The notes under the pieces were generated by a model, which did no database searches, was not told the DNA's origin, and saw only the letters and a program-made list of their open reading frames with translations. This document shows positions 22,899 through 24,364 of a stretch of DNA of 44,141 nucleotides, piece by piece; position 1 is the first letter of the stretch; every line of letters starts with the position of its first letter. This DNA is from an uncultured bacterium (GTDB lineage: Bacteria; Bacteroidota; Bacteroidia; Bacteroidales; CAIXTV01): contig CAIXTV010000099.1 in assembly GCA_903922465.1 (NCBI GenBank), positions 1 through 44,141 on the forward strand, read 5' to 3'. Both the position numbers and the translations under genes were made by a program.

Positions 22899-23510
22899 AT
22901 GAAAACAGTAAATATAAATTACCAAAGACTATCAAATCCTGAATATGTAGATAAAATTGAATTCATACATTTCAGTCTCGATAACAATGACAATTTCCCA
23001 AATTTAGCAGTAGCACTTAGCGTTATTCAAGACAAAAAAGGGATATTGGTGAATCAAATGAACAAAGCACATGCAGGCGACCATCAGGCTGTTAAAGAAG
23101 TTGCTGCCTCTCGGAAATCCATAGACAAGGATATTAAAAAGAATGGTAATTATATTAACGACACTGCAAATGGAGATGAGGTGAAGCTACTGTCGAGCGG
23201 CTACGATTTAAGCAAAGACAGAGAGCTAAAAGAAAAGGAAGATGTTAGGGTTGTGGCAACCAACGATCCAAACGTTGGAAAGGCACATATTAAAGTGATT
23301 GATGGGGCAGTGTCTTATTTGATAGAAATAGCCGATGAGCCCTCCGACCCAAACGACACACCTGTATATCATCGATTGCCCTTGACCACCAAAACATATT
23401 TTCTGGTCAATAATATCGTAAAACACAAACCTTATTTAATGCTCTATGTAGCCGCCACCACCAAAGGCGAATCGGAAACAAAAGGACCCTTTCAGTTTTT
23501 TATGGAATAG
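22899..23510 (+). CDS. Lineage-specific protein: helical N-terminus plus FN3-like C-terminus, 203 aa
   Basis: No signal peptide, membrane segment or catalytic motif is seen. Residues ~25-95 look helical (NFPNLAVALSVIQDKKGILV, then HQAVKEVAASRKSIDKDI). They are followed by LLSSGYDLSKD and a beta-rich half (~105-203) with the spacing of a fibronectin-III-like sandwich. I recall a broad Bacteroidota family of this build (NFP near the start of the helices, then SGFDL-type motif, then FN3-like domain) with no known function. The gene lies 117 bp after array B and 62 bp before a RAYT transposase. An alternative is a small surface or scaffold protein exported by a non-classical route. Confidence 0.8.
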   Translation: MKTVNINYQRLSNPEYVDKIEFIHFSLDNNDNFPNLAVALSVIQDKKGILVNQMNKAHAGDHQAVKEVAASRKSIDKDIKKNGNYINDTANGDEVKLLSSGYDLSKDRELKEKEDVRVVATNDPNVGKAHIKVIDGAVSYLIEIADEPSDPNDTPVYHRLPLTTKTYFLVNNIVKHKPYLMLYVAATTKGESETKGPFQFFME

Positions 23511-23515
23511 GTTTA

Positions 23516-23540
23516 TTTGTTGTGTGAATAAATCTTTTTT
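23516..23540. repeat. 25-bp direct repeat flanking the RAYT gene, left copy
   Basis: The sequence TTTGTTGTGTGAATAAATC followed by six T is repeated identically at 24199-24223 on the other side of the RAYT gene. In addition GTGAATAAAT here is inverted as ATTTATTCAC at about 23563-23572, immediately before the RAYT start. This permits a hairpin over the leader. Confidence 0.85.
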
Positions 23541-23572: not shown

Positions 23573-24181
23573 ATGAAATATAATCCGGAAAAACATCATC
23601 GACGATCCATACGCCTTCAAGGATATGATTATTCGAAGGAAGGAATGTATTTTATTACCCTCTGTTGCGATGGCAGATTAAACCGTTTTGGTAAAATTGA
23701 AAACAAACAAATGTTTTTGAATGAAAATGGAAAAATTGCATACGATGAATGGATGAAATTGCCCGAACGATTTCCCAATTTCGAATTGGATGTATTTCAA
23801 ATAATGCCAAATCATATACATGGGATTATTGTATTAACGCCCGCCGTAGGGGCGGGGTTCACCCCCGCCCATGATGATAACGACCAATCCATTGATAAAA
23901 GGGCAACCGCAAGGGTTGCCCCAACGGCCGCGCCAACGGCCGCGCCAACGGCCGCGCCAACGGTCGCCCCAACGATTGGCGATATTGTCGGGGCGTACAA
24001 ATCATTGGTTTCAAATGAATGTTTGAAAATATATAAATCGAATAATGAAAAAATGGGAAAATTGTGGCAACGCAATTTTTTCGAACACATCATACGCAAT
24101 GAACAATCATATCAAAAAATTTCAGATTATATCATCAATAATCCCGCGAATTGGAAAAATGACGGGTTTTATTATGGATAA
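23573..24181 (+). CDS. RAYT (REP-associated tyrosine transposase, Y1_Tnp/HUH family) with internal REP-like insert
   Basis: The 202-aa protein is a single-domain Y1 transposase. It has the N-terminal GMYFITLCCDGRLNRFG strands, the HUH metal motif H81-x-H83 in MPNHIHGII, and a C-terminal helix with candidate catalytic tyrosines Y180/Y186 (NEQSYQKISDYIINNP). RAYTs cut single-stranded DNA at REP hairpins. Between the HUH strand and the next helix (TIGDIVGAYKS), residues ~90-134 are an extra GC-rich segment that family members often lack. It encodes two strong hairpins and a 12-bp tandem repeat, and still preserves the frame. The gene is flanked by identical 25-bp direct repeats. It looks intact. 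Confidence 0.9.
   Translation: MKYNPEKHHRRSIRLQGYDYSKEGMYFITLCCDGRLNRFGKIENKQMFLNENGKIAYDEWMKLPERFPNFELDVFQIMPNHIHGIIVLTPAVGAGFTPAHDDNDQSIDKRATARVAPTAAPTAAPTAAPTVAPTIGDIVGAYKSLVSNECLKIYKSNNEKMGKLWQRNFFEHIIRNEQSYQKISDYIINNPANWKNDGFYYG
23846..23870 (+). repeat. GTAG-type REP-like hairpin inside the RAYT gene
   Basis: GTAG at 23846-23849 precedes a GC-rich hairpin with stem GGGCGGGG/CCCCGCCC and loop TTCAC. A GTAG tetranucleotide in front of an imperfect hairpin is the known format of REP elements recognised by RAYT proteins. The surrounding gene is AT-rich, so this looks inserted. Confidence 0.75.
23901..23921. repeat. Second GC-rich hairpin inside the RAYT gene
   Basis: The stem GGGCAACC/GGTTGCCC encloses a GCAAG loop. 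It is translated as part of RATARVAP without breaking the frame, and lies 30 bp after the GTAG hairpin. Confidence 0.75.
23918..23974 (+). repeat. 12-bp coding tandem repeat (Ala-Pro-Thr-Ala)
   Basis: Three exact copies of GCCGCGCCAACG, flanked by two partial copies, encode an Ala/Pro/Thr tract at residues ~116-134. As 12 is a multiple of 3, copy-number change would not shift the frame. This is probably slippage downstream of the hairpins. Confidence 0.85.
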
Positions 24182-24198
24182 AGAATAGAAATCGTGTT

Positions 24199-24223
24199 TT
24201 TGTTGTGTGAATAAATCTTTTTT
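24199..24223. repeat. 25-bp direct repeat flanking the RAYT gene, right copy
   Basis: Identical to 23516-23540 over 25 bp, beginning 17 bp past the RAYT stop. The two copies bracket the gene in the same orientation. Confidence 0.85.
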
Positions 24224-24364
24224 TAGTATTGGAAGGACATTAATTTTAGGGAAGATGAATTGAGAATAAAATCCGGAAAAAATAAAATAATGAAATATTT
24301 TGCACCTTTGTTGAAATATTAAAATTATGTCTGTAAGAACACTTAAACGAGAATATAACTGAAG

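Follow-up and report, generated by a model that had tools for sequence, protein, structure and literature searches.

The RAYT (TnpA_REP) gene at 23573-24181 on the plus strand of the 44,141-base stretch of DNA analyzed here (the window) carries, within its own reading frame, a head-to-head pair of REP hairpins in the layout of a REPIN. The explanation we consider best, with a probability of roughly 0.75, is that a REPIN-like pair of cognate REPs entered the gene of its own RAYT, most likely through repeated copying or pasting by the RAYT, filtered for an open frame.

The gene encodes 202 aa with H81 and H83 as its HUH motif, W165 and a candidate catalytic tyrosine, Y186, and the ORF is uninterrupted across the insert. 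Its match to the Pfam family Y1_Tnp is above the cut-off, and the match to NF047646 (REP_Tyr_transpos; E 3e-17) reaches 62.7 bits against a cut-off of 80 and is split around the insert. The top fold match in the PDB found by Foldseek is 4er8, a solved RAYT bound to a REP hairpin (E 1.2e-6), and in the alignment Y186 pairs with its residue 115. Among 54 aligned homologues H81, H83, Y186 and N190 are invariant and residues 89-134 form a gap-rich block. AlphaFold2 gives the core a pLDDT above 90 and residues ~89-134 values of ~49-66, and this hypervariable insert (residues 89-134; 23837-23974, plus strand) is predicted to be a disordered loop between the HUH strand (residues 81-88) and the helix of residues 135-156. 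The HUH motif, the C-terminal Tyr and the Y1 transposase fold are accompanied, as in other RAYTs, by GTAG-tagged hairpins, two of them in the gene and their kin in RAYT relics of the same genome. The motifs NHIH, WQ and YIINNP, the variable insertion between beta3 and alphaC, which corresponds to loop 89-134, and the presence of in-frame REPs within the gene are those of subclass 2.4 or RAYT group 4.

The GC content of ~0.30 in the surroundings rises to 0.58-0.64 across 23820-23999. The initial annotation of this DNA had placed a GC-rich segment at about residues 90-134 of the RAYT, and it was indeed found at residues 89-134 (GC ~0.6 against ~0.3); the GTAG hairpin, the second hairpin and the 12-bp repeat described there are all present, and the 202-aa ORF is intact. 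The first hairpin, REP 1 (23846-23870, plus strand), consists of GTAG followed by GGGCGGGG-TTCAC-CCCCGCCC, with a perfect stem of 8 bp and a loop of 5 nt, and encodes VGAGFTPA. The second, previously taken as just another GC-rich hairpin, turned out to be REP-like itself: REP 2 (23901-23925, minus strand; GTTGGGGCAACCCTTGCGGTTGCCC) is inverted and its tag has decayed from GTAG to GTTG, so that the plus strand reads GGGCAACC-GCAAG-GGTTGCCC and then the reversed tag CAAC, and the other strand GTTG-GGGCAACC onwards. The spacer between the two (~23871-23900) is AT-rich, an exception within the GC-rich insert, and its first 20 bases match the spacer of a 45-bp unit found in three copies in a RAYT relic on contig C64 of the same genome. 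From tag to tag (23846-23925) the head-to-head unit measures 80 bp, with the inverted REPs and outer tags of a REPIN, the second tag being GTTG and the two stems unlike in sequence. The decayed tag speaks against the explanation given above and suggests, by analogy with a group 3 enzyme for which GTTG abolishes cleavage (PMC8266576), that REP 2 is perhaps no longer cleavable. The 12-bp tandem repeat (CCAACGGCCGCG; 23921-23974, plus strand; 4.5 copies, 95% match), which encodes PTAA repeats, overlaps and resembles the 3' arm and foot of REP 2. As single-stranded DNA the insert folds at -40.7 kcal/mol (z = -2.77), and none of 200 shuffles was equally stable. REP 1 and REP 2 were the only GC-rich hairpins with a GT[AGT]G tag in a scan of all 44,141 bases, which found no flanking REP elsewhere in the window; an occurrence of GTAGGGGCG at 667 was set aside as unrelated sequence without a hairpin.

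Copies in the own genome (G000), a draft of 312 contigs that is 97% complete with ~4% contamination, were counted by pattern search. Besides the window, the REP 1 pattern occurs at only one place, C64:31503-31527, inside a decayed RAYT, and hairpins of the REP 2 type occur at C64:31267 and C226:4588, both with compensated stems GGGCGACC/GGTCGCCC. The RAYT relic on C64 (C64:30600-31551) lies at the contig end and its array is frameshifted; its loop contains the 45-bp REP-plus-spacer unit in three copies and a 15-bp half-REP unit in seven. The hairpin at C226:4588 is situated near the 3' end of a gene which, recognized by eye, we take to be a carbon-starvation transporter. Two places for REP 1 and three for the REP 2 type in a 5.02-Mb draft do not make a dispersed multi-copy REPIN population. 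The initial annotation had named two things to look for, further copies in the genome and the fate of the segment in relatives, and had reckoned with the case of one unrelated loop shared by all close homologues without any other copies; instead the segment is variable or absent in relatives and copies exist. The target-like element which it had suspected in a loop is of the RAYT's own cognate REP class, and the loop is predicted to be disordered.

To place this gene among its relatives we compiled 122 distinct RAYT ORFs, from 80 loci of named genomes and from 42 matching genomes among 149 of the same order. Taking a gene to have a loop hairpin when one or more GT[AGT]G-tagged hairpins occur between HUH and W, we found this in 88 of the 122 and detected no loop hairpin in 34. 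The window protein was the seed of the survey, and these figures may therefore somewhat overstate the share of genes with loops like its own. The tagged hairpins are confined almost entirely to the loop (121 of 130), with a density of 4.64 per kb against 0.09 and 0.36 per kb elsewhere. Loops with two hairpins are arranged +- in 20 cases and ++ in five, and the tail-to-tail arrangement (-+) was not seen. A close copy of the loop hairpin is present outside the gene, within 1.5 kb, in 32 of the 88 cases, compared with 3.3 in a control in which hairpins were swapped between loci. Matching REPs can also be genome-wide: the REP within the RAYT gene of genome G019 is a member of a REPIN family with 67 hits there, many of them as evenly spaced inverted pairs.

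By the base of the stem the loop hairpins fall into two classes, GGG (51 genes) and GAG (29). In a tree built from the core domain alone, with the loop left out (119 rows, few columns, many unresolved forks), this class changes once, while 300 label shuffles gave a mean of 23.9 changes and a minimum of 17, a signal that owes part of its strength to simple inheritance of the class. In the 25-mers the first two stem pairs are fixed in each class and pairs 5-8 swap among A-T, G-C, C-G and T-A; the GG base stays fixed while distal pairs covary, which indicates that the DNA hairpin is conserved as a structure. The own genome holds both classes. GGG-type hairpins were found in GGG-clade RAYTs or relics (C99, C64 and, with a further hairpin within a relic, C3) and at a few other sites, among them the starts of C24 and C182, outside RAYTs. 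The GAG-type was found in or near the GAG-clade RAYTs of C82 and C191, where palindromes beginning with GTAGAGACGC lie in the corresponding loop. Each clade therefore holds its own hairpin class within one genome and, as far as the sequences tell, the hairpin class goes with the enzyme.

These regularities could also be expected if the in-gene REPIN were under selection for a function in cis, the RAYT binding the hairpin in mRNA or single-stranded DNA and so limiting its own expression, or an internal source REP accompanying the gene in horizontal transfer. Such hairpins are present in the majority of the genes, their stems remain paired though their sequence varies, their class is nearly always that of the lineage, and RAYT genes or relics account for about half of the small number of such REPs in the own genome. 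We nevertheless regard this explanation as doubtful. Besides the 34 genes in which no loop hairpin was detected, the tree shows 30 changes in its presence; neither position nor number, frame or orientation is conserved, and recent insertion followed by decay yields the same picture without selection.

The same turnover makes it very improbable that a single ancient insertion was inherited vertically and diverged in place, even though the class changes only once on the tree and many genes carry the hairpin in frame +0 at a similar place (VGAGFTPA, VGATLAVA). Hairpins on the plus strand are read in two frames (58 and 11), the reading with TAG in frame being never used, and among 71 genes there are at least 17 changes of layout state, defined by reading frame and orientation. 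Among Flavobacterium RAYTs whose cores are 82-89% identical the hairpin is absent in L096 and differs in position between L099 on the one hand and L100 and L102 on the other. In the surveyed genes L050, L058 and L094 a like element lies at a secondary site near residue 45 (FGKI-D-VGAGFTPAQ-MILN in L050). The in-gene hairpin of G019, moreover, matches the current family of that genome. That the loop is a low-complexity linker rich in Ala, Pro and Thr, with hairpins as a chance product of its codons, is hardly credible despite a match to the Pfam PT disordered repeat below the cut-off, and it is refuted by the codon-shuffle control, in which the loops scanned alone gave 0.8 hairpins against 112 observed; the DNA hairpin also persists where the encoded peptides vary with frame and class, and related copies are present outside RAYT genes (C226, G019).

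Turnover of frame and position, together with the sites near residue 45, argues that insertion happened repeatedly and that only events leaving the frame open persisted, and enrichment in the loop, the match to the lineage and the copies close to the genes fit repeated insertion of a RAYT's own cognate REP. We attempted to reconstruct an exact empty site with target-sequence boundaries for the window insertion and obtained none, which counts against this reading. In E. coli and in group 3, RAYTs bind REPs in single-stranded form and cleave them at CT or CA, and GTAG is implicated in recognition and guides site choice in one enzyme (PMC8266576); the RAYT literature cited here, as far as its text was accessible, yielded no activity assay of a group 4 or subclass 2.4 RAYT. 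By analogy with the assayed enzymes, the substrates of the window RAYT would be its cognate hairpins, with frequent hits on DNA near the source of the enzyme. Most likely the enzyme, active on single strands in the neighbourhood of its own gene, repeatedly copies or pastes the cognate GTAG hairpin there, and the entry site is the one stretch in which in-frame additions are well tolerated, the disordered link from the HUH strand to the following helix. Selection would then retain only those insertions that leave the frame open. Units of half-stem and spacer could subsequently expand by tandem duplication, of 12 bp here and of 45 and 15 bp in the C64 relic, and expansion of a half-stem would account for both the 12-bp repeat and the PTAA peptide. 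We infer that the chemistry of the RAYT itself probably made the insertion, in cis, and that the loop is presumably neutral for function. A further possibility, speculative and in our estimate rather unlikely, is that the RAYTs of this branch have their own substrate built in as a self-contained cassette, the loop REPIN being continually renewed to match the specificity of the enzyme and serving as a seed copy or as a cis-regulator that links enzyme and element through horizontal transfer, even without flanking REPs.

The insert is less surprising than was assumed at first, since in-frame REPs had already been described in 2018 for this subclass of RAYTs. According to the accessible text of Quentin et al. 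(PMC6006769), subclass 2.4 (NH[IFV]H, WQ, YIxNNP; Cyanobacteria and Bacteroidetes) has REPs inserted in frame in its tnpA_REP genes, as a rule in the part between HuH and Y, and its loop contains short repeats. The window gene resembles that description in its HUH-Y core, the hypervariable beta3-alphaC insertion with in-frame REPs, the Bacteroidetes-type distribution, the motifs NHIH, WQ and YIxNNP and the presence of canonical and double-foot REP types, and differs from it in the head-to-head pair, the decayed second tag and the lack of a flanking REP in the window. Judged by its motifs, it adds one more case to a kind already described. With the REPINs or BIMEs associated with RAYTs, as described in the accessible part of PMC3116915, it shares two inverted REPs, GTAG outer ends and the RAYT association, but those are mostly dispersed, extragenic and high in copy number, while here the pair lies in frame in the transposase gene and has very few genomic copies. 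REPs inside many other genes are described in the accessible text of Di Nocera et al. 2013 (PMC3733652), and these intragenic GTAG REPs are likewise palindromes read through in frame; their hosts are diverse genes, whereas here the host is the cognate transposase. The Rickettsia palindromic elements (RPE) cited in that text are also short palindromes in frame in proteins, but they form a CGTC-tagged class outside RAYTs, unlike the GTAG-type pair of the window. The frequency of loop hairpins, their layout, lineage matching and turnover statistics are new here and show that the arrangement is widespread; layout statistics, a lineage test, a test of cognate flanks and two clades in a single genome were not found in the accessible texts of PMC6006769 and PMC3733652. 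The arrangement bears on what keeps REP families matched to their RAYTs and on how such families arise in a new genome. A gene with its own cognate element makes both questions testable: each RAYT sequence directly predicts its substrate, and a single gene moved to a naive laboratory strain could show whether the internal copy alone seeds new REPs. The high frequency of the arrangement and its lineage matching make this a useful test system.

Several minor observations accompany these results. On C82 of the own genome (L041:145-2853), 3' of the GAG-clade RAYT, lies a 902-aa type I restriction-modification ORF (N6_Mtase and Methylase_S) with three in-frame palindromes of the GTAGAGACGC type, which are read in two frames and encode RDAMHRVST, VETQCIASL and VETRCIASL. 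G093:C12:343674-343990 is a REP array with GTAGGGGCGAACAGCATTCGCCC hairpins every ~49 bp in a single orientation. The RAYT loops of L160 (G039:C22) and L155 (G131:C29) contain many tandem units (QNNHVTQNNDTNHQGQPQGVA; VAQNDM), through which the L160 protein reaches 310 aa with its frame kept. In the window, a 203-aa ORF without a Pfam match lies directly 5' of the RAYT (22899-23510), and on the 3' side 24185-24295 is a decayed copy of the RAYT upstream region and start, in which a 39-bp repeat (23502-23540 and 24185-24223, 85% identical) is followed by 24265-24281, matching 23577-23593. A target duplication was considered for these direct repeats flanking the ORF and rejected because the match to the gene start follows the downstream copy, which therefore looks like the relic of the 5' end of a second RAYT, a tandem copy.
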